Assembly (NCBI RefSeq): GCF_015690345.1
Contig: NZ_JADPUN010000437.1
Coordinates: 1 to 33,242 of the forward strand
Source of the DNA: Plantactinospora alkalitolerans
Lineage (GTDB): Bacteria; Actinomycetota; Actinomycetes; Mycobacteriales; Micromonosporaceae
Direction of reading: 5' to 3'
DNA length: 33,242 nucleotides
Position 1 is the first letter of the stretch, and the number at the start of each line of letters is the position of its first letter. The notes beneath the pieces are model-generated. The model did no database searches. It saw nothing but the letters and a program-made list of their open reading frames with translations, and was not told the origin of the DNA. This document shows positions 6,010 to 33,242 of the stretch, piece by piece. Made by a program: the position numbers and the translations under genes.

Positions 6010-7200
6010 CTGTACCGTTCGAGAACGCGGCTTCGGCTACGCGGCCTGCTCGTACTCGTTGATCAACCCGTGGACCACCTTCCTGCGCCGTACCCGCACC
6101 GCACCGCACCCAAATCAGCAACCATCGCCGGAAGCCTGTCCCGCTCAGGTGGGCGTTGCCCGCGGGCCTGGTGCGGCCGATGCCCGTTATAGTGCGCCAG
6201 ATACTCGTGCAGCACGGCGAGTAGCTGCCGCGTGTTGTAGATCAGGAGCCGGTCCAGGCATTCTCGCCGGACCGTACGCACCCAGCGCTCCGCGAACGCG
6301 TTCGCACGGGGCGCCTGTGGCGGCGTCCGGAGCACCTCAATACCCCCGGCCCGGAACACGGTGTCCAACATCGCGGTGTACTTGGCGTCCCGGTCCCGGA
6401 TCAGGAAACGGAACCGGTTGGCCCGTTCCCCCAGGTCCAGCATCAGGTTGCGGGCCTGCTGCGTCACCCACTCACCGGTCGGATTCGTGGTGGCGCCCAG
6501 CAGGTGGACTCGCCGGGTGGCGACCTCCATGAGGAACAGTACATAGACGCGGGTCATGCCGATGGTGTCTACATGCAGGAAATCGCAGGACAGGATGCCT
6601 TTGGCCTGCGCGGTGAGGAACTCGGTCCAGGCCGGTCCCGCCCATCGCGGCGCCGGGCCGGCACCAGCCCTGGTCAGGATCGCCCAGACCGTGCTGGCCG
6701 CGAGTCGGTAGCCCAGGCCGGCCAACTCGCCCTGGATACGCCGACAACCCCAGGTCGGGTTGTCCCGGGCCAGCCGCAGCACCAACTGGCGCACCTCGGC
6801 CGTGACCGGTGGACGACCCGCACGCCGCCTCGGATAGGTCCACCGCCGCGCGATCAGGTTGCGATGCCAACGCAACAAGGTGGCCGGAGTGACGAAGAAC
6901 GCTGGCCACCGCGTCCGCGGCGGCAGCCTCGACAGCCCGGCCAGCACCACCCGGTCGGCCGGTTCCAGATCCAGCCGGCGCACCTGCCGACGGAGTACCG
7001 CGACCTGGTGCCGCAACACGAGCACCTCGACCGCGTTGGCGTGCCCACCGCGAGCCAACAGGATCACCAACCGCAGTGCCTGCCGAAGAATCAGGTAGCC
7101 GAACGACAGGATCATGACCGGCAGCATGACACCACTCGTCGATCCCACGATGGACAAAGTCCCACGTCAGCGCCCGTGGCCGAGTTTCCGAACGGTACAG
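6010..7200 (-). mobile_element. Intact 1191-bp IS, copy 1 (integrase-core transposase)
   Basis: The left end CTGTACCGTTCG (6010-6021) is the inverted repeat of CGAACGGTACAG (7189-7200). The single transposase is on the minus strand. The element is the same length as those at 14590, 21326 and 27277. It is nearly identical to 21326-22516: I find two differences, the third terminal base (G here, A there) and A/G at the position equivalent to 22206. No obvious target-site duplication flanks it. Confidence 0.85.
6063..7157 (-). CDS. Integrase-core (rve) transposase, IS481/IS3-like, with altered C-terminus
   Basis: A 364-residue DDE transposase. It has a helical N-terminus (ILRQALRLVILLARGGH, then VLRHQVAVLRRQVRR), an HTH/linker region (FVTPATLLRWHRNLIARRW, WGCRRIQGELAGLGY) and an rve catalytic core with Asp in ILSCDFLHVDT, Asp in [10 protein letters not shown] and Glu in NAFAERWVRTVRR. 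Relatives end with a conserved KVVHGLINEYEQAA-type tail. Here that tail is present in the DNA but in a different frame, because the pentamer GCACC is repeated three times at 6096-6110; two copies would restore it. The protein instead ends GCGYGAGRWSTG-like (after AVR) at 6063. The same change is in the second copy, so the enzyme probably remained mobile with it. Confidence 0.85.
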   Translation of the reverse strand: MSIVGSTSGVMLPVMILSFGYLILRQALRLVILLARGGHANAVEVLVLRHQVAVLRRQVRRLDLEPADRVVLAGLSRLPPRTRWPAFFVTPATLLRWHRNLIARRWTYPRRRAGRPPVTAEVRQLVLRLARDNPTWGCRRIQGELAGLGYRLAASTVWAILTRAGAGPAPRWAGPAWTEFLTAQAKGILSCDFLHVDTIGMTRVYVLFLMEVATRRVHLLGATTNPTGEWVTQQARNLMLDLGERANRFRFLIRDRDAKYTAMLDTVFRAGGIEVLRTPPQAPRANAFAERWVRTVRRECLDRLLIYNTRQLLAVLHEYLAHYNGHRPHQARGQRPPERDRLPAMVADLGAVRCGYGAGRWSTG

Positions 7201-13711: not shown

Positions 13712-14536
13712 ATGAGTGTTACATCCACCGCCACGTTGACCGTGCGCGAGCAGACCGTGCTGTTCGTCTCCGGCCTGCTGCACACCGAACGCCTGCGACG
13801 CGGTACCCGCACCGGTAGCCGCGCCCTCGGTTGCTTCAAGCAGGCGGTCCTGGTCATCCGGTGGTTCCTGGACGGCACCCGGATCAAGCAGTTGGCAGGC
13901 GACAACGCGATCAGCAAGTCCACCGCCTACGACTACCTCCACGAGGGCATTGGGGTGCTCGCCGCCCACGCCCCGAACCTGAGACCAGCGCTGTTGGCCG
14001 CGAAGCTCGCCGGCTACTCCCACGTCAACATCGACGGGACCGTGATCGAGACCGACCGGTGCCGTACCCCGGGACCCACCCCGGATGTGGACCTCTGGTG
14101 GTCGGCCAAGTGCGACAACCACGGCGGGAACATCCAGGTCATCACCGCCCCGGACGGGTGGCCGCTGTGGACCTCCGACGTGCGCCCCGGCCGCGAGCAC
14201 GACACCACCGCACTGCGCGAGCACGCCGAGATCCTGCCCCTGCTGTCCACGTGGACCGGCGATCACCTGCGGATCCTGGGCGACCTGGGCTACGAAGGCG
14301 AGGCAGCCACCATCACGGTTGCGTTCAAGAAACCCAAAGACAGTGAACTCACCGACCTCCAGAAGACCTTCAACAAGGCCCACAACGGCATACGCGCCGT
14401 CGGTGAACGCGGAAACTCCCTGCTCAAGACCACCTTCAAAGCCCTACGCAACGTCAGCCTCTGCCCCTGGAAGATCGGCAAGATCGCCGCAGCCGCACTC
14501 GTGCTTCTGCACTTCGAACACGGCCGCACCACCTGA
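13712..14536 (+). CDS. IS5-type transposase (DDE_Tnp_4 superfamily)
   Basis: 274 residues. An N-terminal HTH-like part (FKQAVLVIRWFLDGTRIKQL, then ISKSTAYDYLHEGIGVLA) precedes a DDE domain with Asp in SHVNIDGTVIETDR, Asp in LRILGDLGYEGEA and Glu in IRAVGERGNSLLKTTFKALR. The reading frame is full length, so it may be active. Terminal inverted repeats could not be defined with confidence. Only 53 bp separate its stop from the next IS at 14590. It lies downstream of the dehydrogenase fusion without interrupting it. Confidence 0.8.
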   Translation: MSVTSTATLTVREQTVLFVSGLLHTERLRRGTRTGSRALGCFKQAVLVIRWFLDGTRIKQLAGDNAISKSTAYDYLHEGIGVLAAHAPNLRPALLAAKLAGYSHVNIDGTVIETDRCRTPGPTPDVDLWWSAKCDNHGGNIQVITAPDGWPLWTSDVRPGREHDTTALREHAEILPLLSTWTGDHLRILGDLGYEGEAATITVAFKKPKDSELTDLQKTFNKAHNGIRAVGERGNSLLKTTFKALRNVSLCPWKIGKIAAAALVLLHFEHGRTT

Positions 14537-14589: not shown

Positions 14590-15780
14590 TTGTGCGGTGC
14601 CAATACCTGTCGCACTCGCTGTGAGCTGGGGCTTCGTGAGTTTGGGGCACCTTCGTGGCCATGGTGCTCCGATTGGTCTATCTGGTCGCGATCCGCATAT
14701 TCGACGCCCTGCTGCGCGCGACCCGTAGCGACAACGTCGTGCTCGCGGAACTGCTGGCCCTTCGCCATGAGGTCGCGGTGCTACGCCGCCAGATCCACGG
14801 CCGCCCACGCCTGTCCTGGCCAGACCAGGCGATCCTGTCCGCGCTGTCCCGCCGCCTGCCCCGCGCGGTCCGCATCCACCGGCTCGTGACCCCGGCAACC
14901 CTGCTCGCCTGGCACCGCCGCCTGGTCCAACGCCACTGGACCTACCCCCAACGCGGCGGCCGACCACCCGTCAGCGACGCGATCCGCGAGCTCATCCACC
15001 GAATGGCCCGCGACAACCCCCGCTGGGGCCACAAGAGAATCCAAGGCGAACTGCTCGGACTGGGCCACCGCGTCGGCCTCGGCACCATCCGCCGAATCCT
15101 GGCCCAAGGTCGCCTCGGCCCCGCGCCCCGCGACACCGACACCTCTTGGCGGAGGTTCCTGCGTACCCAGGCCACCAGCCTGCTGGCCGCCGACTTCTTC
15201 CACGTCGACACCGTGTGGCTATGCCGCTTGTATGTGCTGGTCGTCATGGAGATCGCCACCCGCCGGGTGCACCTGCTCGGCGTGACCGAACACCCGACCC
15301 AGGCGTGGGTGACCCAGCAGGCCCGCAACCTGCTCATGGAACTCGGCGAACGGGCCAGCGACTTCCGGTTCATGATCCGCGACCGCGACACCAAGTACGC
15401 CACATCGTTCGACGCCGTCCTCGCCGACGAGGGCGTACAGATGGTGAAGACACCACCACGTACACCGACGGCGAACTGTTTCGTCGAGCGCTGGGGTCGC
15501 AGCATGCGCGAGGAGTGCACCGACCACGTCCTGGTCTACGGCCAGCGGCACGCCAGGATAGTGCTGACCGAGTACGTCCGACACTTCAATGACCATCGGC
15601 CGCACCAGGGGCGCGGGCAGGTACCGCCTAACCGTGGGCCCGGCATCGTGATGCCGGTCGACGGCGTTGTCCGACGCCGAGGACGACTCGGCCGGGTCAT
15701 CAACGAGTACTACCGGGCCGCTTAAACGGATCTACGAATCCGCAGGTCAGCGACCGGAACCTCGTTTTGGCACCCTACAG
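14590..15780 (+). mobile_element. Intact 1191-bp IS, third type
   Basis: The left end TTGTGCGGTGCCA (14590-14602) is an imperfect inverted repeat of TGGCACCCTACAG (15768-15780). The subterminal GTGAGCTGGG matches the element at 27277. The length is exactly that of the other three intact members. No clear target duplication was seen. Confidence 0.8.
14655..15725 (+). CDS. Integrase-core (rve) transposase, IS481/IS3-like
   Basis: 356 residues from GTG 14655 (or ATG 14661). [38 protein letters not shown] and [20 protein letters not shown] form the N-terminal half, and [18 protein letters not shown] the HTH. The catalytic core has Asp in [13 protein letters not shown], Asp in [10 protein letters not shown] and Glu in [14 protein letters not shown], with D(34/35)E spacing. 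It ends with the intact family tail [17 protein letters not shown]. The protein is complete and closely related to the one at 27332-28411. Nothing suggests inactivity. Confidence 0.85.
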
Positions 15781-15907: not shown

Positions 15908-15936
15908 TTGATGTCATGTGAGCACTCCCGTAACAT
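15908..15936 (+). promoter_or_regulatory. Predicted promoter of the GH62 gene
   Basis: TTGATG (15908-15913), a 17-bp spacer, and TAACAT (15931-15936) form a reasonable housekeeping-sigma promoter 79 bp upstream of the start codon. The spacer is filled by the operator-like sequence at 15917-15930. Confidence 0.5.
15917..15930. promoter_or_regulatory. LacI-type operator-like site within the promoter spacer
   Basis: TGTGAGCACTCCCG resembles the GAGCGCTC-centred dyad bound by actinobacterial LacI-family sugar repressors, with two imperfect positions. Its placement between -35 and -10 would give repression. Confidence 0.45.
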
Positions 15937-15949
15937 GCAGGACACCGAT

Positions 15950-15961
15950 GATAGCGCTCAC
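15950..15961. promoter_or_regulatory. Second LacI-type operator-like site
   Basis: GATAGCGCTCAC has an AGCGCT core, about 33 bp centre-to-centre from the first site, downstream of the predicted transcription start. Paired sites on the same face could support cooperative repression. Confidence 0.35.
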
Positions 15962-16014
15962 AAGAAATAACCCACACCTTGCCGCAGGTGGCAGCCATAC
16001 CGGGAGGATGCCTC

Positions 16015-17412
16015 ATGGCTAGATCCAGAGCGGTCAATGCCGGTCTGTTGTCGGCCGGCATTGCGCTGCTGGCGTCGGCGATGGTTGTCGTAGCGATGCC
16101 GGCTGCCGCGACCGCCGGCTGTTCGGTGAATTACACCGTCTCGTCGCAGTGGCAGGGTGGATTCCGCGCCAACGTCACGATCACCAACCCAGGCGAGCCG
16201 TTGACCAGTTGGACGTTGACGTGGTCGTACGGCGCCGGGCAGACGGTCACCCAGGCGTGGAACGCGACGGTAACCCAGAGCGGTTCGACGGTGACCGCGC
16301 GGAACATGAGGTACAACGGTTCCATTCCCACAAACGGCACGATGTCGTTCGGTTTCAACGGGACGTGGACTGCCAGCAACCCCGCGCCAACGGGTTTCTC
16401 CCTGAACGGCGTTGCCTGCACCGGTGACACGGCGCCGACCACCCCGCCGACGTCGGGTCCCACCACCGGTCCCACGACGGGCCCGACCACACCACCACCG
16501 GGCAACACCTGCCCACTGCCGTCGTCATACCGGTGGTCGTCAACGGGCCCGCTGGCCCAGCCGAAGCCGGGGTGGCTCTCCCTTAATCATTTCGCCGCCG
16601 TCCCGCACAACGGCCAGCACCTGGTCTACGCGTCGACCTTCTCGGGAACGTCGTACGGTTCGATGAACTTCAGCCCCTTCACGAACTGGTCGGAAATGGC
16701 CACGGCCAGCCAGAACGGGATGTCTTTCGCCGCCGTCGCGCCCACCCTGTTCTATTTCACCCCGCGCGACATCTGGGTGCTGGCCTATCAGTGGGGGCGG
16801 TGGCCCTTCCTCTACCGGACGTCGAGCGACCCGACCGACCCGAACGGCTGGGGGCCGGAGCAGCCGCTCTTCACCGGCAGCATCTCCGGTTCCGGCACCG
16901 GCCCGATCGACCAGACGCTCATCGCCGACGAGCGGAACATGTACCTCTTTTTCGCCGGTGACAACGGCCGGATCTACCGCTCCAGCATGCCGCTCGGGAA
17001 CTTCCCGGGCAGCTTCGGCTCCGACTACACCACGATCATGACCGACAAGCAGGTCAACCTCTTCGAGGCGGTGCAGGTCTACAAGCTCCGGGGCCAGCAC
17101 CGGTACCTCATGCTCGTCGAGGCGATCGGCGCGAATGGCCGGTACCTGCGCTCGTTCACGGCCACCAGCCTGGACGGCACCTGGACTCCGAACGCGACCA
17201 GCGAGAGCGACCCGTTCGCCGGCAAGGCCAACAGCGGCGCGGCCTGGACGAACGACGTCGGCCACGGCGAGTTGCTCCGCACCAGGGCCGACCAGACCAT
17301 GACCGTCGACCCCTGCAACCTGCAACTGCTCTACCAGGGACGAGAATCAAGGCCCGGCACTGCTTACGATCCGCTGCCGCACCGGCCGGGTCTGCTGAAC
17401 CTGCAACGCTGA
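16015..17412 (+). CDS. Secreted CBM2-GH62 alpha-L-arabinofuranosidase with altered general base
   Basis: 465 residues. GGGAGG seven bases upstream fixes ATG 16015. Order: signal peptide 1-34 (cleavage after AAATA); CBM2 about 35-137 ([53 protein letters not shown]); a Thr/Pro linker to about 164; and a GH62 domain ([64 protein letters not shown]). GH62 enzymes remove arabinofuranosyl side chains from arabinoxylan by inversion. The conserved LKDF motif, which carries the general-base Asp, reads LNHF here, so His192 occupies that place. Asp299 (GPIDQ) and the acid Glu351 (NLFEA) are kept. The enzyme may therefore be weakened or inactive while still binding polysaccharide through CBM2. Operator-like sites upstream suggest sugar-responsive control. 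Confidence 0.92.
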
Positions 17413-17457: not shown

Positions 17458-17494
17458 CGAGGGCGGGCTCGGCACAACGCCGGGCCCGCCCTCG
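17458..17494 (+). terminator. Strong stem-loop terminator after GH62
   Basis: CGAGGGCGGGC (17458-17468) pairs perfectly with GCCCGCCCTCG (17484-17494), an 11-bp GC-rich stem, 45 bp after the stop. It is followed by TTCTCC rather than a long T run. Confidence 0.7.
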
Positions 17495-17911: not shown

Positions 17912-19161
17912 TGCCGAAAACCTCATCCGTCCTGGTCGCAGCCATCTAAATCATCGAGGTGGAAGGCTCCGCTGAAGACGTGGAGCCTCTCGGCTGGATC
18001 GCGACGGTTGTCTACGTCGAGAACTGCGCGACGATGGGGTGTGCTGTTCCGACTGGCCTACCTCGGCGTGACCAACACCCTCGCCCGGCTACGACTGCTA
18101 CCCATGAGCGACCACGACAAAGACGCCGAAATCCTCGCGCTCCGGCACCAGATCACGGTCCTCGAACGACAACTGCACGGCGACCGGGTCCAATTCACCT
18201 CGGCGGACCGGGCATGGTTGGCCGCCCTGCCGCACCCGTTGCCGCGAACCGCAATGAACCACCTGCGGCTACTGGTCAGCCCCGAGACGGTGCTGCGCTG
18301 GCACCGGGACCGGATCGCCCTCCGACACGCCAGACGTTCCCGCCCCCACCAAGTCGGGCGACCACGAACAGTCCGGTCCATCCGTCGGCTCGTCCTGCGC
18401 CTGGCCTCGGAGAACACCACCTGGGGATACCGCCGCACCACGGCGAACTGCTCGTCCTGGGCGTCAAGGCCGCCGCCTCCACCGTCTGGGAGATCCTGAA
18501 GGATGCCGGAATCGATCCGGCACCTCAGCGCACCAGCAGCACGTGGGCGGTGTTCCTACGATCCCAGGCGCAGGCCGTCATCGCCGCCGACTTCTTCGAA
18601 ACGACCACCCCGACCGGCACCCGCCTCTACGTCCTGGCGGTCATCGAACACGCCACCCGCCGCATCCGGATCCTCGGCGCCACCGCACATCCCACCGCAG
18701 CCCGGGTGACCCAGATCGCCCGGAATCTGGTCATGGACCTCGAAGACGCGGGCCGCCCGGTGAAATACCTGATCCGCGACCGGGACGGCAAATACCCAGC
18801 CCTGTTCGACCGGGTGCTCGCCGACGCCGACATCACCGTGGTGCACACAGGCGTCCGGATACCCCGGATGAACGCGATCATGGAACGCTGGATACGGACC
18901 TGCCGACGTGAACTCCTCGACCGGACACTGATCCTCAACCAGCGACATCTACTACACGCGCTCCGCGAGTACGAGGTCTTCTACAACGAACACAGGCCTC
19001 ATCAGGGCGTCGCCAACGCCCGGCCACTCGCCCCACTGCCCGAACCGATCACCGCCCCGGACCGGATCGCCCGCCTGAACATCCACCGACGTGACCGCCT
19101 CGCCGGCACCATCCACGAGTACGAACATGCCGCCTGACCTGCCTGGATGACATTTTCGGCA
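17912..19161 (+). mobile_element. IS481-like element of 1250 bp with frameshifted transposase
   Basis: The left end TGCCGAAAACCTCATCC (17912-17928) and the right end GGATGACATTTTCGGCA (19145-19161) are inverted repeats with two mismatches. The element separates a methylenetetrahydrofolate-reductase-like fragment from the VOC region. No target duplication was seen. A 3'-end remnant of a related element lies at 23612-23694. Confidence 0.75.
18041..19137 (+). pseudogene. Integrase-core transposase with one -1 frameshift
   Basis: GTG 18041 starts VLFRLAYLGVTNTLARLRL, then ILALRHQITVLERQLHGD and VSPETVLRWHRDRIALRHAR, up to NTTWGYRR. At 18436-18438 one base is missing, because the expected RRxHGELLVLG requires a single extra base. 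Reading resumes in the next frame: HGELLVLGVKAAASTVWEI, VIAADFFETTTPTG (Asp), YLIRDRDGKYPALFD (Asp), MNAIMERWIRTCRRELLDRT (Glu), [14 protein letters not shown] and HEYEHAA, stop at 19137. Relatives are single uninterrupted frames, so this is loss of function (or a sequencing slip) rather than programmed frameshifting. Confidence 0.8.
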
Positions 19162-21325: not shown

Positions 21326-22516
21326 CTATACCGTTCGAGAACGCGGCTTCGGCTACGCGGCCTGCTCGTACTCGTTGATCAACCCGTGGACCACCTTCCT
21401 GCGCCGTACCCGCACCGCACCGCACCCAAATCAGCAACCATCGCCGGAAGCCTGTCCCGCTCAGGTGGGCGTTGCCCGCGGGCCTGGTGCGGCCGATGCC
21501 CGTTATAGTGCGCCAGATACTCGTGCAGCACGGCGAGTAGCTGCCGCGTGTTGTAGATCAGGAGCCGGTCCAGGCATTCTCGCCGGACCGTACGCACCCA
21601 GCGCTCCGCGAACGCGTTCGCACGGGGCGCCTGTGGCGGCGTCCGGAGCACCTCAATACCCCCGGCCCGGAACACGGTGTCCAACATCGCGGTGTACTTG
21701 GCGTCCCGGTCCCGGATCAGGAAACGGAACCGGTTGGCCCGTTCCCCCAGGTCCAGCATCAGGTTGCGGGCCTGCTGCGTCACCCACTCACCGGTCGGAT
21801 TCGTGGTGGCGCCCAGCAGGTGGACTCGCCGGGTGGCGACCTCCATGAGGAACAGTACATAGACGCGGGTCATGCCGATGGTGTCTACATGCAGGAAATC
21901 GCAGGACAGGATGCCTTTGGCCTGCGCGGTGAGGAACTCGGTCCAGGCCGGTCCCGCCCATCGCGGCGCCGGGCCGGCACCAGCCCTGGTCAGGATCGCC
22001 CAGACCGTGCTGGCCGCGAGTCGGTAGCCCAGGCCGGCCAACTCGCCCTGGATACGCCGACAACCCCAGGTCGGGTTGTCCCGGGCCAGCCGCAGCACCA
22101 ACTGGCGCACCTCGGCCGTGACCGGTGGACGACCCGCACGCCGCCTCGGATAGGTCCACCGCCGCGCGATCAGGTTGCGATGCCAACGCAACAAGGTGGC
22201 CGGGGTGACGAAGAACGCTGGCCACCGCGTCCGCGGCGGCAGCCTCGACAGCCCGGCCAGCACCACCCGGTCGGCCGGTTCCAGATCCAGCCGGCGCACC
22301 TGCCGACGGAGTACCGCGACCTGGTGCCGCAACACGAGCACCTCGACCGCGTTGGCGTGCCCACCGCGAGCCAACAGGATCACCAACCGCAGTGCCTGCC
22401 GAAGAATCAGGTAGCCGAACGACAGGATCATGACCGGCAGCATGACACCACTCGTCGATCCCACGATGGACAAAGTCCCACGTCAGCGCCCGTGGCCGAG
22501 TTTCCGAACGGTACAG
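21326..22516 (-). mobile_element. Intact 1191-bp IS, copy 2
   Basis: This is the second copy of the element at 6010-7200, in the same orientation, 15316 bp away. The left terminus is CTATACCGTTCG (the third base differs from copy 1) and the right terminus CGAACGGTACAG ends at 22516. It joins a broken IS1182 transposase on its left to a broken integrase on its right, so DNA was lost at insertion or afterwards. Confidence 0.85.
21379..22473 (-). CDS. Integrase-core (rve) transposase, identical in protein to 6063-7157
   Basis: The 364-residue product has the same sequence as the first copy, including the altered C-terminus caused by three GCACC units (21412-21426). The single coding difference I see, at 22206, is silent. 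The DDE residues lie in [21 protein letters not shown] and NAFAERWVRT. Because both copies carry the changed tail, it was present before the element copied itself. A recombination-made second copy is the other explanation. Confidence 0.85.
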   Translation of the reverse strand: MSIVGSTSGVMLPVMILSFGYLILRQALRLVILLARGGHANAVEVLVLRHQVAVLRRQVRRLDLEPADRVVLAGLSRLPPRTRWPAFFVTPATLLRWHRNLIARRWTYPRRRAGRPPVTAEVRQLVLRLARDNPTWGCRRIQGELAGLGYRLAASTVWAILTRAGAGPAPRWAGPAWTEFLTAQAKGILSCDFLHVDTIGMTRVYVLFLMEVATRRVHLLGATTNPTGEWVTQQARNLMLDLGERANRFRFLIRDRDAKYTAMLDTVFRAGGIEVLRTPPQAPRANAFAERWVRTVRRECLDRLLIYNTRQLLAVLHEYLAHYNGHRPHQARGQRPPERDRLPAMVADLGAVRCGYGAGRWSTG

Positions 22517-24878: not shown

Positions 24879-24907
24879 TTGACGGCCCGTGTGCCAAAGC
24901 ATAGATT
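24879..24907 (+). promoter_or_regulatory. Predicted promoter of the CotH-family gene
   Basis: TTGACG (24879-24884), a 17-bp spacer, and TAGATT (24902-24907) are close to the housekeeping-sigma consensus. The start codon lies about 84 bp downstream. Nothing resembling a repressor site is seen nearby. Confidence 0.6.
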
Positions 24908-24990
24908 GGCGTCAATATCACGATGGCCTGCCCCCATCGACGACGCCAGCGGTGCCTCGATCAATCGCCAGTCTCGATCAAGGACGAAGG

Positions 24991-26805
24991 GTGCCTTCCG
25001 TGCGAAGAACCAGGATGAAAGTAATCGGCGCGCTGGCCGTACTGACGGTCGTCACGGCGGGATGTGCCGGCGGCGTCTCCAGCCCAGCCGGGCTGACCAG
25101 TGCGGCGGAGTTGGCCGTCAACGCTGCCCGGCATGGCCCGCCGGCCGACCAGCGAGCCGTGGACGCCCTCGGCGGCTCGGGGTCGGCCGGCGTCGACCCG
25201 GCCGCCGCGACTGCCCAGACCAGGCAGCAGCAGGCGATGCTGGAGGGCGACATCCAGTTCTCCGTGCCGAGCGGCACCTTCCAGGGCCAGCAGTCGGTGC
25301 AGCTGAGCACCAGCATCGCGAACGCGCAGATCAGGTACACCACCGACGGCACCGCGCCGACTGCGGCCTCGCCGCTCTACCAGGGCGCGATCACGCTACA
25401 GCGCACCGCCCAACTGCGTGCTCAGGCCTTCGTCGACGGCGCGGCCAGTGGTGCGATGGGCACCTCGGTCTACGTCGCTCGGACGATCGACGCGGAACAC
25501 GACCTCCCGCTGGTCGTGTTGGACGCCTACGGCGGCGGCAAGCCGGCCCGTGACTACCGGGACGTCGCCGTGATGGTGATGGACCGGCAGAACTCCGTGG
25601 CCTCGTTGGGACAGCAGCCGGCCGTCGCCACCCGGGGTGGCTTCCATCTGCGCGGTCAGTCGTCCAGCAACTTCGCGAAGGCGCCCTACCGGCTCGAGTT
25701 CTGGAACAACGAGGACAAGGACGCCGACTACCCGGTGCTAGGCATGCCGGCCGACTCCGACTGGGTGCTGCGTGGCCCGTTCCCGGACAAGACCCTGATC
25801 CGGGACGCCTTCGCCTACAGCATCGGCCGGGACATGGGGCTGCGGGCGCCGCGGTTCGCGTTCGTCGAGGTCTATCTCAACCTGGACGCCCAGCCATTGG
25901 CGGCAGACGACTACCAGGGCGTCTATCTGCTGGTAGAGACCCTCAAGAACTCGCCGGACCGGATGAACCTGCAGAAGCTCAAGAAGTCGGATATCACCGA
26001 ACCCGCGATATCCGGTGGCTACGTCATGCAGTTCAACGCGCTGGCCGCCGAGCCGCCGATCCTGACTTGTACCAGGAAGCCGCCGAGCAACGCCTGCTGG
26101 AGCGACCTCGAGGTCAACGATCCGGATGAGCTGCAACCGGAGCAGCTGGCCTGGATCACCGACTACATCCAAAGGTTCCATGACTCGTTGCGGAGTGCGA
26201 ACCCGTCCGATCCGACGACCGGATATCCGGCCTACATCGATGTCGACTCGTGGGTGGACCGGATTGTGCACAACGAGCTGGCGCGGGAGCCTGACGCCTA
26301 CATCCGCAGCACCTACTTCTTCAAGGACCGGCAGGGCAAGCTCGTCGCCGGTCCATTGTGGGACTACGACATCGGTTACGCCGCGTACACCGGCTTCGGC
26401 GGAGCGACCACCACCGGGTGGCAGTTCCAGCCCGGCTTCGGCAGCAACACAACCGACTGGTTCATAAGGCTGATGCAGGATCCCGCCTTCGCCGCTCGCG
26501 CGAAGACCCGCTGGGAGGCGCTGCGCACCGGCATCATGTCCGATGCGCAGCTCGGGGCGCGGGTCACGACGTTGAGTGCGCCGCTGATCAACGCGGCCCA
26601 GCGCAACTTCACCAAGTGGCCGATTCTGAACCAGCGTGTCGTCGGTGGTTTCCAGACCCAGGTCAGCCAGACGTGGCAGCAACAGCTCGACATCATGCGG
26701 CAGTGGTTGATCGCCCGCACGGCCTGGCTGGACTCCTCCGGGTGGACGCCTACCGCGACGGCGCCGGCGGACGCCGTACCGCCGCCGCAGCTGACGGCGA
26801 GATGA
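24991..26805 (+). CDS. CotH kinase family lipoprotein with N-terminal beta-sandwich domain
   Basis: 604 residues from GTG 24991 (AGGA six bases upstream); GTG 25000 and ATG 25015 are alternatives. A signal (VIGALAVLTVVTAGC) with a lipobox-like TAGC suggests a surface lipoprotein anchored at Cys25. A chitobiase-C-terminal-like beta domain follows (IQFSVPSGTFQGQQSVQLS, IRYTTDGTAPTAASPLYQG, about 85-155). The CotH domain fills the rest: RGGFHLRGQSSSNFAKAPYR, DKTLIRDAFAYSIGRDMGLR, YQGVYLLVETLKN and PLWDYDIGYAAYTGFGG, where Asp458 and Asp460 of the WDYD motif fit the metal/catalytic site. Spore CotH phosphorylates coat protein; the target of this secreted form is unknown. It lies inside the tRNA-Pro element, facing away from the Tn3 relic. 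Confidence 0.85.
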   Translation: MPSVRRTRMKVIGALAVLTVVTAGCAGGVSSPAGLTSAAELAVNAARHGPPADQRAVDALGGSGSAGVDPAAATAQTRQQQAMLEGDIQFSVPSGTFQGQQSVQLSTSIANAQIRYTTDGTAPTAASPLYQGAITLQRTAQLRAQAFVDGAASGAMGTSVYVARTIDAEHDLPLVVLDAYGGGKPARDYRDVAVMVMDRQNSVASLGQQPAVATRGGFHLRGQSSSNFAKAPYRLEFWNNEDKDADYPVLGMPADSDWVLRGPFPDKTLIRDAFAYSIGRDMGLRAPRFAFVEVYLNLDAQPLAADDYQGVYLLVETLKNSPDRMNLQKLKKSDITEPAISGGYVMQFNALAAEPPILTCTRKPPSNACWSDLEVNDPDELQPEQLAWITDYIQRFHDSLRSANPSDPTTGYPAYIDVDSWVDRIVHNELAREPDAYIRSTYFFKDRQGKLVAGPLWDYDIGYAAYTGFGGATTTGWQFQPGFGSNTTDWFIRLMQDPAFAARAKTRWEALRTGIMSDAQLGARVTTLSAPLINAAQRNFTKWPILNQRVVGGFQTQVSQTWQQQLDIMRQWLIARTAWLDSSGWTPTATAPADAVPPPQLTAR

Positions 26806-29069: not shown

Positions 29070-30473
29070 TCAGCCGTGCGGCTTACCGCGACCGCCCGCG
29101 CCGATCTTCTTCCTCGGCTTCACCGACACCTCCACCGGGCTGCCGACGAAGCCGAACTCCTCCCGGAGCTTGCGCTCGATGAACCGCTGATAGCCGGCGT
29201 CGAGCGGCGCAGTGGTGAAGAGCACGAAACGCGGCGGGGAGATGCCCGCCTGGGTGGCGAAGAGAATCCGTGGCGCACGACCACCGCGTACCGGGTGCGG
29301 TGTCCCCTGTACCAGGGCGGTGAGCCACTGGTTGAGCTGCCCGGTCGGCACCCGTGTCTCCCAACTCGCCAGGGCGGTACGGAGTGCCGGTGCGAGCTTG
29401 TCCACGGCCCGACCTGTCTTGGCCGAGACGTTCACCCGGATCGCCCAGGGGATCCGGCGCAACTCCCGCTCGATCTCCTTGTCCAGGTAGTAACGCCGGT
29501 CCTCGTCGACCAGGTCCCACTTGTTGAAGGCAATGACGAGAGCCCGGCCGGTCTCGGTGACCGTGGTCAGGATCCGCTGGTCCTGTTCACTGATCGGTTC
29601 GCTGGCGTCGAGCAACACGACCGCCACCTCCGCCGCCTCGATCGCGGCGGCGGTACGCAGGCTGGCGTAGTACTCCGTACCGCTGGCCTTGCCGACCCGC
29701 TTGCGCAGCCCCGCGGTGTCTACCAGTTGCCAGGTCTCCCCGCCGATCTCCACCAGGCTGTCGACCGGGTCGACGGTGGTACCGGCGACGGCGTCCACCA
29801 CCGACCGCTCCTCCTTCGCCAGTCGGTTGAGCAAACTGGACTTGCCCACGTTGGGACGGCCCACCAGGGCCACCCGGCGCGGCCCTCGCGGACCGGCCTC
29901 GCTGATCGGCGGCGCGTCCGGCAGCGCCTCGAGAATCGCGTCCAGCAGGTCACCGGAGCCCCGGCCGTGCAACGCGGAGACGGGACGGGGTTCGCCGAGC
30001 CCGAGCGACCACAACGACGTCGCCTCGACCTCCGTGGCCGCGTTGTCGGCCTTGTTCGCGACGAGCAGGACCGGCTTGGCGCTGCGCCGCAGCATCCGTA
30101 CCGCCGCCTCGTCGACGTCGGTGGCCCCGACCACGGCATCCACCACGAACAGCACCACGTCGGCCGTCGCGACGGCGATCTCGGCCTGCGCCGCGATCGC
30201 GCCGGCGCGGTCCTTCGCGTCCGGCTCCCAACCGCCGGTGTCGACCACCGTGAACTGCCGGCCCGACCACTGGGCGTCGTACGGGATCCGATCCCGGGTC
30301 ACCCCGGGAGTGTCCTCCACGACCGCCTGCCGCCGACCGATGATTCGGTTCACCAGGGTCGACTTGCCGACGTTCGGACGTCCGACGACGGCGACCACCG
30401 GCGTCGGGCCGGTCGCCTCGTCCTCGTCGACGTCCGGCTCCCGCAGTTCGATCCAACCGTCCCCCGTGCTCAC
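29070..30473 (-). CDS. der: Ribosome biogenesis GTPase Der (EngA)
   Basis: 467 residues from GTG 30473, with AAGGAGG four to five bases before it. Two tandem GTPase domains: the first begins [18 protein letters not shown], with DTGGW and NKAD; the second begins [17 protein letters not shown], with DTAGLR and NKWD. The C-terminal KH-like domain ends in a basic tail ([16 protein letters not shown]). Der acts in late assembly of the 50S subunit and is essential in most bacteria. It lies 67 bp downstream of cmk on the same strand, its usual partner in actinobacteria, so co-transcription is likely. Confidence 0.95.
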
Positions 30474-30540
30474 GCCGCCTCCTTGCCCTGCCGGGTACGA
30501 CCCCGGTCCGCTACCTCACCGATCCAGCCACGCCACCGGG

Positions 30541-31224
30541 TCACCGACCCGGCCGCCGTCCGGCGAGCAGTTCGTGCAGCCGTGCCACGACCTCGTCGAT
30601 GCCCAGGGCGGTGGTGTCGAGCACCACCGCGTCCGGCGCCTGCCGCAGTGGATCGGCGGCGCGGGTGGAATCGAGCCGGTCACGCCGGGCGAGGTCGGCC
30701 GCGGTGGCCGCGACATCTGCGGAGTTTTCCGCGCTGCGCCGGTGCGCCCGTGCCTCGGCCGAGGCGGTCAGGTAGACCTTGAGGTCCGCATCCGGGGACA
30801 CTACCGAGCCGATGTCCCGGCCCTCCACCACGATTCGGCCGGCCGCCTCGATGATCTCCCGCTGCAGTGCGACGAGTTGTTCGCGTACAGCGGGCACGGC
30901 CGACACCGCCGACACCGCACCGGTGACCTCGGCCCCTCGGATATCCCGGTCGATGGCAATCCCGTCCGCGGTCACGCTCGGCGCCTCCGGATCCACACCG
31001 ATCTTGAGATCTGTCTCCCCCACCACCTTGGTGACCGCCTCGGCATCCTGGGGGTCGACCCCGGACCGCAGCACCGCCCAGGTCACCGCCCGGTACATCG
31101 CCCCGGTGTCCAGGTAGCGAGCGTCGAGCGCGGTTGCCAGCCGCCGGGAGACGGTGGACTTCCCCGAACCGGACGGGCCATCCACGGCGACCACACATCG
31201 CCTGGTCCGTTCCTTTTCCGCCAC
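30541..31224 (-). CDS. cmk: (d)CMP kinase (cytidylate kinase)
   Basis: 227 residues. GTG 31224 is preferred because AAGGAG lies six bases upstream; an in-frame GTG at 31239 overlaps that site. The P-loop is VVAVDGPSGSGKSTVSRRLA. LDTGAMYRAVTWAVL is the CMP-binding region, and IVVEGRDIGSVVSPDADLK plus YLTASAEARAHRR form the lid region. The enzyme phosphorylates CMP and dCMP using ATP, mainly to recycle CMP from RNA and lipid turnover. It is in line with rluB and der. Confidence 0.95.
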   Translation of the reverse strand: MAEKERTRRCVVAVDGPSGSGKSTVSRRLATALDARYLDTGAMYRAVTWAVLRSGVDPQDAEAVTKVVGETDLKIGVDPEAPSVTADGIAIDRDIRGAEVTGAVSAVSAVPAVREQLVALQREIIEAAGRIVVEGRDIGSVVSPDADLKVYLTASAEARAHRRSAENSADVAATAADLARRDRLDSTRAADPLRQAPDAVVLDTTALGIDEVVARLHELLAGRRPGR

Positions 31225-31593
31225 CGTTCTCTCCTTCACCGATCAAGGGGCAATCTGCCCGGCTCTGCCGAGTCGTGCGGGCAGCCGGCCGTGGCGGCGC
31301 CTCCGCGTTTCGCTGTCCATCATGCCCCGTCCGCCGTACCGGCCCGCGCCCGACCGGCCATCGCCGCCAGGAGACGAGCGCCGACCGGACTTCGAGCGGT
31401 CACGCGCCCGACAGCGGCCGTTCACCGCGCTGCTCCGGGCCGACCGAGTCGACGTCAGCCCGCGCGGGCCGCATCCCGTACACCTGGGGGACGGGGTTCG
31501 CCCGGCAGCAGGCCTGCCTATCGTTCAGGGCCACCGGCGACCGCGCCACCGAGCACGGCCACCAACGAACACCGGCCACCAGGGCCGCCGGCC
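31225..31593. other. Gap between the pseudouridine synthase gene and cmk
   Basis: I see no supportable gene in these 369 bases. The minus-strand frames here are Arg/Gly-rich and lack ribosome-binding sites. In some actinomycetes an extra gene (prephenate dehydrogenase) occupies this place; none is here. The gap could hold a promoter for cmk-der, but I cannot identify one. Confidence 0.45.
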
Positions 31594-32343
31594 TCAGTCG
31601 CCGACCGCCTTGAAGAGCGCCGCGACTTCGGCGTTCGTCAACCGACGGGTACGACCGGGGCGCAGGTCGCCGAGCCGGATCGGTCCGATCGCGGTACGTA
31701 TCAGCCGCGACACGGGATGCCCGACCTCGTCCAACAGCCGCCGTACGATGTGATTGCGCCCTTCGTGCAGGGTCAACTCCACCTGGGCCGTACGTCCCAA
31801 GGTGTCCACGAGGCGAAAGTCGTCCACCCGTGCCGGGCCGTCCGCCAACTCGACCCCGGCCTTCAGCCGTCGGCCGGCGTTCCGGGCCAGTGGGCCCGCC
31901 ACCTCGCACAGGTATGTCTTCGACACCCCGTACGACGGATGCATCAGGCGGTGGGCGAGCGTGCCGTCATTGGTGAGCAGCAGCAGTCCCTCGCTGTCCG
32001 CGTCGAGGCGGCCGACGTGGTAGACCCGCTCCTCGACCCGGCCGAGAAAGTCTCCCAGCGCGGTGCGTCCCTTCTCGTCCGCCATCGTCGAGACCACACC
32101 GCGCGGCTTGTTCATCGCGAGGTAGATCAGGCGGGTGTCGGTGACCAGCCGCTCGCCGTCGACGTAGATGACGGCAGAACTGGGATCGACCTTGTCCCCG
32201 AGCTGGGCGACCTGCCCGTCCACGGTGACCCGGCGCCGGAAGATCAGGTCCTCGCAGGCACGTCGGGAGCCGACGCCAGCGGCGGCGAGCACCTTCTGCA
32301 GGCGCTCGGCGCCGGGGGCGCCGCGGTTGTCATCGTGGGGCAT
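31594..32343 (-). CDS. rluB: rRNA pseudouridine synthase, RluB/RsuA family
   Basis: 249 residues from ATG 32343. The N-terminal S4 RNA-binding domain reads ERLQKVLAAAGVGSRRACED, then LIFRRRVTVDG. The catalytic domain contains YLAMNKPRGVVSTMADEKG and VYHVGRLDADSEGLLLLTND, whose Asp in GRLD is the catalytic residue of this family. HEGRNHIVRRLLDEVGHPV and LIRTAIGPIRLGDLRPGR complete the family pattern. It modifies uridines in ribosomal RNA; by synteny with scpB this is the RluB-type enzyme (23S rRNA), though RsuA-type specificity cannot be excluded. Its start overlaps the scpB stop by 14 bases, showing translational coupling. Confidence 0.9.
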   Translation of the reverse strand: MPHDDNRGAPGAERLQKVLAAAGVGSRRACEDLIFRRRVTVDGQVAQLGDKVDPSSAVIYVDGERLVTDTRLIYLAMNKPRGVVSTMADEKGRTALGDFLGRVEERVYHVGRLDADSEGLLLLTNDGTLAHRLMHPSYGVSKTYLCEVAGPLARNAGRRLKAGVELADGPARVDDFRLVDTLGRTAQVELTLHEGRNHIVRRLLDEVGHPVSRLIRTAIGPIRLGDLRPGRTRRLTNAEVAALFKAVGD

Positions 32344-33242
32344 CGGCAATCTCTTCCACGTCGTCGGGCAGGAACGGGGCCAGCGGCGGTAGTTGGTCGA
32401 CGGTGTCGAGCCCGAGTTTCTCCAGGAACAGCGTCGTCGTCCGATAAAGGAAGGCGCCGCTCTCCGGCTCGGTGCCACACTCCTGGACCAGTCCGCGAGA
32501 GACCAGGGTACGGATCACCCCGTCGCAGTTGACACCCCGGATGGCCGAGATGCGCGACCGGGTCACCGGTTGCTTGTAGGCGACCACCGCCAGCGTCTCC
32601 AGCGCCGCCTGGGTCAACCGGACGGTTTGCCCGTCCAATACAAAGCGCTCGACGTAGCTCGCGTATTCCGGCCGGGTGTAGAGACGCCAGCCACCCGCTG
32701 CCCGACGTAGCTCAAAACCGTGACCCGCCGCCGTGTAATCGCGGGCCAGCCGGTCCAGTATCGCCGACACCCGTTCCGTCGGCTGCTCCAGGACCTGCGC
32801 GAGCAGGATCTCCGCGACCGGCTCGTCCACCACCAGCAGGATGGCCTCCAGGGCTCCGCGCAGCTCGTCCTCGTCGACCAGCGTCAGCGTCGCGGCCTGC
32901 GGGTCGGCCACGTCGGGCACCGGAACCGCCGCCGGCTCCCCGACCGCCTCCCCGCCCTCATCTCCGGGTACGTCGGCGGCCTCCGCCTGCGCCACCTCGG
33001 GCTCCTCCGCCACGGCCGACCCCGCCGGGTCCTCCTCGACGGAAGGCTGCGCCAGTTCCGCACCATCCCGTTCCACAGCCGGCCCCGACCCGACCAGCTC
33101 CGGACCAACCGACTCCGGACCAACCGACTCCGGACCAACCGACTCCGGACCGACCAGCTCCGGACCAACCGACTCCGGACCGACCAGCTCCGGACCGACC
33201 AGCTCCGGACCAACCGACTCCGGACCGACCAGCTCCGGACCG
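32330..33242 (-). CDS. scpB: SMC-Scp complex subunit ScpB, N-terminus beyond window
   Basis: The conserved part starts at about 32890: LRGALEAILLVVDEPVAEIL, FELRRAAGGWRLYTRPEYAS, ALETLAVVAYKQPVTRSRIS and RGVNCDGVIRTLVSRGLVQE, the two winged-helix domains of ScpB. ScpB dimers with ScpA form the kleisin complex that loads SMC for chromosome segregation. The stop is at 32330 inside rluB. The frame is open through an acidic Ala/Glu/Pro-rich stretch and the repeat array to the right edge. GTG 33076 exists but has no ribosome-binding site, so the true start probably lies outside. A long low-complexity N-terminal extension is variable in actinobacterial ScpB. Confidence 0.88.
   Translation of the reverse strand, partial: GPELVGPESVGPELVGPELVGPESVGPELVGPESVGPESVGPESVGPELVGSGPAVERDGAELAQPSVEEDPAGSAVAEEPEVAQAEAADVPGDEGGEAVGEPAAVPVPDVADPQAATLTLVDEDELRGALEAILLVVDEPVAEILLAQVLEQPTERVSAILDRLARDYTAAGHGFELRRAAGGWRLYTRPEYASYVERFVLDGQTVRLTQAALETLAVVAYKQPVTRSRISAIRGVNCDGVIRTLVSRGLVQECGTEPESGAFLYRTTTLFLEKLGLDTVDQLPPLAPFLPDDVEEIADAPR
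33092..33242 (-). repeat. 15-bp tandem repeat array encoding GPE(S/L)V pentapeptides in ScpB
   Basis: About ten 15-bp units in two variants (GGTCCGGAGTCGGTT and GGTCCGGAGCTGGTC on the minus strand) run in frame to the window edge. They encode alternating GPESV and GPELV. Because the units are multiples of three, copy-number change would not break scpB. Confidence 0.85.

Follow-up and report, generated by a model that had tools for sequence, protein, structure and literature searches.

A GH62 protein of Plantactinospora alkalitolerans with histidine in place of the catalytic general base: a possible pseudoenzyme

Can a secreted GH62 protein that lacks the catalytic base of its family still be an enzyme, and, if it is not one, why does its gene remain open? 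These questions are raised by a gene on the forward strand at 16015..17412 of a 33,242-nucleotide stretch of Plantactinospora alkalitolerans DNA (contig NZ_JADPUN010000437.1; hereafter the window). Its uninterrupted frame of 465 codons, preceded on direct reading by a ribosome-binding-site-like GGGAGG (16002..16007, + strand), specifies a signal peptide, a CBM2 domain, a linker and a GH62 domain. The secretion signal (residues 1-35; 16015..16119, + strand) was recognized by eye as a hydrophobic N-terminus that aligns with the same region of relatives. The CBM2 domain (residues 36-135; 16120..16419, + strand) matches the Pfam profile PF00553 over positions 1-101 of 101 with 112.8 bits (E 1.1e-32), and its W47, W82 and Y101, which we take to be the aromatics of the binding face, are as in most relatives compared. 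The GH62 domain (residues 166-435; 16510..17319, + strand), seen in both the profile search and an AF2 model, matches PF03664 over its full length (1-272 of 272; E 6.8e-144; 478.6 bits against a cut-off of 22.1), and homology continues to residue 465. By this profile match, the protein belongs to the GH62 sequence family.

The departure lies in the catalytic center. The LKDF motif of the family reads LNHF in the window protein, with Asn191 (AAT, 16585..16587, + strand) in place of the lysine and His192 (CAT, 16588..16590, + strand) in place of the general-base aspartate. The initial annotation had described this from the letters alone, and its coordinates, frame, motif, CAT codon and spacing of 159 residues between His192 and Glu351 are all borne out. 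In the Streptomyces coelicolor structure 3wmy, an aspartate (chain residue 165) and a glutamate (chain residue 324) that are also 159 residues apart align to His192 and Glu351, and the aspartate is present in all 216 other GH62 domains compared as well as in seven GH62 crystal sequences; the claim that His192 replaces the base thus holds. We assume that the base and acid of the S. coelicolor enzyme ScAraf62A are numbered D202 and E361, the agreement with the window protein being one of spacing alone. The general acid Glu351 (17065..17067, + strand) is kept, according to the alignment, and so is Asp299 (16909..16911, + strand). The latter had been named beforehand as a possible alternative base, which would have undone the observation; it is ruled out as a replacement, as it aligns with the second aspartate of the catalytic triad (Abf62C D171; T. 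pinophilus D160) and is aspartate in all 216 other domains.

The description of the domain as otherwise canonical stands for the acid and the second aspartate, but it missed K191N, S416G and F378L. The basic residue ahead of the base is lysine in 216 of 216 other domains and arginine (R51) in the T. pinophilus structure 6f1j. At Gly416-His417 (17260..17265, + strand), the SHG motif has become GHG, with the histidine itself kept and the serine found in all 216 others; this serine is noted as conserved in GH62 (PMC6556953). The motif is not absolute, since the solved GH62 structure 6f1j reads SSG, departing at the histidine of the motif. The column of F378L has 214 phenylalanines and two tyrosines in the other domains. 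Thus, among the residues expected of an active GH62 arabinofuranosidase, the acid glutamate and the second aspartate are present, and the base aspartate, the basic residue preceding it and the SHG motif are absent.

The biochemistry of related enzymes indicates what such losses should mean. GH62 enzymes are inverting: a water below the furanose ring is activated by the base aspartate, and the leaving oxygen receives its proton from the glutamate; in T. pinophilus, it is Asp52 that holds the nucleophilic water, and it also touches the sugar (PMC6096477). The naming varies, in that one sentence of the Scytalidium Abf62C study calls Glu230 "the general base residue" (PMC4408175), whereas the T. 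pinophilus study has Asp52 as base and Glu212 as acid (PMC6096477); we follow the latter in calling the aspartate the base and the glutamate the acid, and both papers treat the aspartate as catalytic. In Abf62C, alanine at Lys54, Asp55, Asp171, Glu230, Tyr77, Arg259, Tyr338 or His303 results in complete inactivity (PMC4408175). When these residues are mapped on the window protein, only Lys54 (N191) and Asp55 (H192) are changed; the others are kept as Y214, D299, E351, R376, H417 and Y451. By analogy with mutants of other GH62 enzymes, the window protein is likely inactive, the mutants coming from the other GH62 subfamily, in which the core differs in places: the column of Abf62C Tyr77, for instance, is tryptophan in 126 of the 205 closer relatives of the window protein. 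The expectation of the initial annotation that base loss should abolish or strongly reduce hydrolysis is accordingly supported as a prediction from sequence, and is strengthened by the lost lysine and the altered SHG motif. The substrate groove, on the other hand, is mostly retained. In T. pinophilus, the xylan chain is lined by Trp121, Asp177, Phe211, Arg237, Tyr312 and Asn313 (PMC6096477); the first five correspond to W260, D316, F350, R376 and Y451, which are kept, and the equivalent of Asn313 is Asp452. This position is often aspartate in one GH62 subfamily, and N339A abolishes the activity of Abf62C (PMC4408175).

The AF2 model of the GH62 domain has a mean pLDDT of 81.0 (57.0-81.0 across five models) and a pTM of 0.86. 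Its best PDB match is 3wmy (TM 0.94), and the predicted fold is the five-bladed propeller of the family. Mean pLDDT is 88 in the block that contains the strand with N191 and H192 (model residues 31-32), and the stretch just ahead of the SHG site (model residues 242-253) falls below 50. The model speaks to the backbone and is uninformative on side-chain chemistry.

How unusual is this center? Among 217 distinct GH62 domains, lysine-aspartate occupies columns 191-192 in all 216 others and asparagine-histidine occurs in the window protein alone, so the count across the family that the initial annotation had proposed comes out in favor of its observation. The 216 domains (205 with at least 55% identity and 11 with less) were selected for their similarity to the window protein and come from its own genome, six genomes of the same genus, 80 named loci, part of the family matches and a class sample. 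The family search gave a match in 265 of 354 genomes, part of the listed matches being taken into the comparison; the even class sample gave one in 37 of 394 genomes at E <= 1e-60, with at most five candidates scored per genome and all listed matches compared. Set apart from the 216 are eight short matches at contig ends of the same genome, representing six places, of which three show aspartate at the column and three end short of it. No orthologue sharing the asparagine-histidine pair was found in this sample, making the window protein a singleton, and no relatives were found in the viral contigs searched; 13 plasmid records match the query, none of them over 80% of its length. A literature search that took in few subscription papers found nothing on point for a natural GH62 pseudoenzyme or an aspartate-to-histidine base. 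The protein also departs from its relatives elsewhere: in a leave-one-out count over 147 sequences, it differs at five columns that are invariant in the rest, against one for the next sequence and a median of zero. At columns conserved to at least 98% and at least 95%, the counts are eight against six and eleven against nine for the next sequence, so that the protein stands out clearly only at the most strictly conserved columns.

The codons themselves bear on how and when the change came about. All 146 relatives compared have AAG GAC at positions 191-192, and the window has AAT CAT, after CTT. Three or more substitutions across the two neighboring codons therefore separate them, and neither a one-base change from GAT to CAT nor a single miscalled base is an explanation; the suggestion of a recent one-base mutant is contradicted by the relatives. 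An error of sequencing or assembly at this codon is the least probable of the readings considered here. The assembly is a draft (441 contigs), and other GH62 copies in it are interrupted at contig ends, yet such an error would have to account for three or more altered bases in AAG GAC as well as independent changes elsewhere. Moreover, in the 190 bases surrounding the codon, identity to the contig-end copies is only 76%, so the locus is no mixture of these copies.

In a quick protein tree of the 147 sequences, the end branch of the window protein is the longest (0.61; median 0.039), its placement being marked as unsure. The next-longest branch (0.29) belongs to the only other complete GH62 of the same genome (C91), in which the base is intact. 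A branch codon model, run with a custom script on 12 chosen sequences of the 147, estimates dN/dS at 0.103 for the branch of the window protein against 0.048 elsewhere (LRT 7.36) and rejects neutrality on that branch (lnL -4880.2 versus -4858.0; 2 x delta lnL about 44). Seven of the 12 end branches exceed an LRT of 3.84 when compared with one common rate, five with lower dN/dS and two, the window protein and C91, with higher. Since C91, with its base intact, has a similar value (0.096, LRT 6.71), the modest rise is not in itself a signature of base loss. In the CBM2 part, the rate is not clearly altered (0.083 versus 0.052, LRT 0.81). Thus, the protein has been constrained during most of its separate history. 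The value of 0.10 averages the whole branch, including the time before the base was lost, and so does not imply present-day maintenance; these data are compatible with either maintenance or decay.

The genome has other GH62 genes, whose redundancy may have buffered the loss of the base. Besides C91, it holds three N-terminal and three C-terminal GH62 pieces at contig ends, and LKDF is present in C91 and in all three N-terminal pieces. The genes on contigs C53, C78, C79 and on C4, C234, C435 break at the same two places, and the pieces look as if the assembly had failed to resolve about three almost identical copies. The query has 57 matching stretches across the genome, for the most part within its CBM2 region. 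Regulatory-looking sequences flank the gene. A promoter/operator-like stretch, CCGTAACAT ... TGATAGCGCTCACA (15928..15962, + strand), is similar to one ahead of L019, a CBM2-GH62 gene of the same genus (genome G006); a looser version lies upstream of a CBM2 gene on contig C78 of the P. alkalitolerans genome, and in the alignment none was seen ahead of C53 or C91. It resembles operators of the LacI type and may be one. The 11-mer TAGCGCTCACA within it (15952-15962) occurs in 20 of 179 loci, some of them overlapping, and looks like a shared operator; the C53 and C78 loci also carry it on the opposite strand, farther upstream. A search of the window for a looser palindromic operator pattern found nothing, and a search of the window for a copied source of the odd 12-mer CTTAATCATTTC found only its own site. 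Past the stop codon, an inverted repeat forms a terminator-like, G+C-rich hairpin (17458..17494, + strand), and a similar one, seen by eye, follows the L019 gene.

The gene sits between insertion sequences. Upstream, Pfam identifies an rve_3 transposase (14655..15725, + strand), with another transposase farther upstream (13712-14536). Downstream, about 420 bases past the hairpin, begins an insertion sequence (17912..19161, + strand) with an rve_3 transposase and 26-nt terminal inverted repeats that are 77% complementary. No further carbohydrate enzyme was seen among the nine neighboring ORFs scanned with Pfam. The wider window has features of its own. Two transposase genes (6063-7157 and 21379-22473, both on the - strand) have, by eye, an identical 364-residue translation and represent a recent repeat of one insertion sequence. 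A large CotH-kinase-domain protein with Fn3-associated and CHB_HEX_C_1 domains is encoded at 24889-26805 (+ strand). The insertion-sequence-rich stretch abuts a housekeeping block (29070-33241, - strand) with a Der/EngA GTPase gene by Pfam and cmk-, rluB- and scpB-like genes by eye; a frame at this edge of the window carries a VGPELVGPES-type repeat.

Within the sample, then, the substitutions and their uniqueness are plain, and it is their meaning that must be weighed. With confidence slightly better than even, we read the protein from its sequence as a GH62 pseudoenzyme, perhaps maintained as a secreted binding protein. The exported CBM2-GH62 protein would fold as the usual five-bladed propeller and would lack useful arabinoxylan hydrolysis because the base aspartate, the lysine ahead of it and part of the SHG motif around the calcium-site histidine have given way to His192, Asn191 and Gly416. 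The catalytic loss may have been tolerated because the genome has other GH62 genes with the base intact, which would cover the function. The CBM2 domain would still dock the protein on cellulose, and the kept groove (W260, D316, F350, R376 and Y451, with E351 and D299) might still hold a xylan chain. Since most of the residues of the xylan-backbone groove and the CBM2 domain are kept, binding is the most plausible function, and the protein may serve to anchor to, mask or help sense arabinoxylan. The polysaccharide-binding pseudoenzyme of the initial annotation is compatible with this retention and with a dN/dS near 0.10. In favor of a role are also the open frame and the promoter/operator- and terminator-like flanks resembling those of L019. 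This reading is only modestly favored over decay, according to which the gene is a redundant paralogue that lately lost its catalytic center, is functionless and will become a pseudogene, its low dN/dS coming from an earlier active period. Decay is a serious possibility, if a less probable one. It draws on the presence of LKDF in four further GH62 genes or pieces, of which contig ends truncate three; on the position between insertion sequences, away from other carbohydrate enzymes among the scanned neighbors; on the largest number of conserved-residue departures of the 147 sequences; on a DNA identity to relatives of only 0.63-0.65 over residues 438-455; and, marginally, on a GC3 of the GH62 part (0.91) just below the 0.916-0.970 of seven relatives. 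It sits less easily with 465 codons free of stops and frameshifts, with the ordinary look of the CBM2 rate and regulatory flanks, and with the retention of the acid, the second aspartate, the calcium-site histidine and most of the xylan groove.

That the protein is still an arabinofuranosidase, with His192 or a relayed water acting as base, or with a rearranged pocket permitting slow hydrolysis, appears improbable. In its favor, Glu351 and Asp299 are present, the substrate groove is largely preserved, the predicted fold is normal, and mutation of the base in some inverting glycanases is reported to leave some activity (PMC4599007). Against this, the adjoining lysine, independently essential in Abf62C (PMC4408175), is lost as well, the SHG motif is altered, and histidine as base is found in none of the 216 other GH62 domains, nor was one met with in the literature search. 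Still fainter is the prospect of a secreted arabinofuranosyl phosphorylase or transferase, in which the pocket opened by the histidine and asparagine would admit a nucleophile that needs no base, such as phosphate, another anion or a sugar hydroxyl. This would be, by analogy, the reverse of a switch between phosphorylase and hydrolase known in GH130, itself a five-bladed propeller family. Among the GH130 mannoside phosphorylases and hydrolases, carboxylates that replace basic phosphate-binding residues yield hydrolases, the nucleophile switching between phosphate and water (PMC4599007). The apo crystal of Abf62C does have phosphate in the pocket, contacting Lys54 (PMC4408175). The window protein belongs to a different family from GH130 and has lost, not gained, the lysine that makes this contact, which speaks against the easiest form of new chemistry.

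Comparison with known proteins sets the finding in proportion. The closest characterized relatives are the Streptomyces enzymes ScAraf62A (3wmy), the best match by both sequence (E 6.2e-157) and predicted fold (TM 0.94), and SthAraf62A (4o8n), with which the window protein shares the fold, the acid, the second aspartate, the calcium-site histidine and most of the xylan groove. It differs from them in having asparagine-histidine for the lysine and base aspartate, GHG for SHG and an N-terminal CBM2 domain. L019 has the same architecture at 74% identity over 465 residues and similar flanking sequences; unlike the window protein, it retains LKDF and SHG, and no transposase was seen, by eye, beside it in the sequence covered. 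A parallel for a binding role may be drawn with the tobacco defective invertase Nin88, which belongs to GH32, a related family of five-bladed-propeller glycosidases with a retaining mechanism. Nin88 is secreted, has lost key residues and sucrose hydrolysis, and is proposed to act by competitive binding (PMC11821009). Family, mechanism and kingdom all differ in that case, and the parallel is one of analogy and not of homology of the event.

The window protein represents a real departure from the GH62 catalytic center, unique in the sample and a single case, not a new system. In a weaker form of the finding, it would be an ordinary dying duplicate. Should the finding be confirmed, the protein would be a natural GH62 without a base, in a family that is described as comprising arabinofuranosidases only, with one GH62 module having an added endoxylanase activity (PMC6556953). 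It would also be a warning, as automatic annotation would label the protein an active enzyme. More generally, the protein is a natural experiment on two questions: how well an inverting propeller hydrolase can withstand losing its base, and whether CAZyme paralogues that are secreted get recycled as binding proteins.
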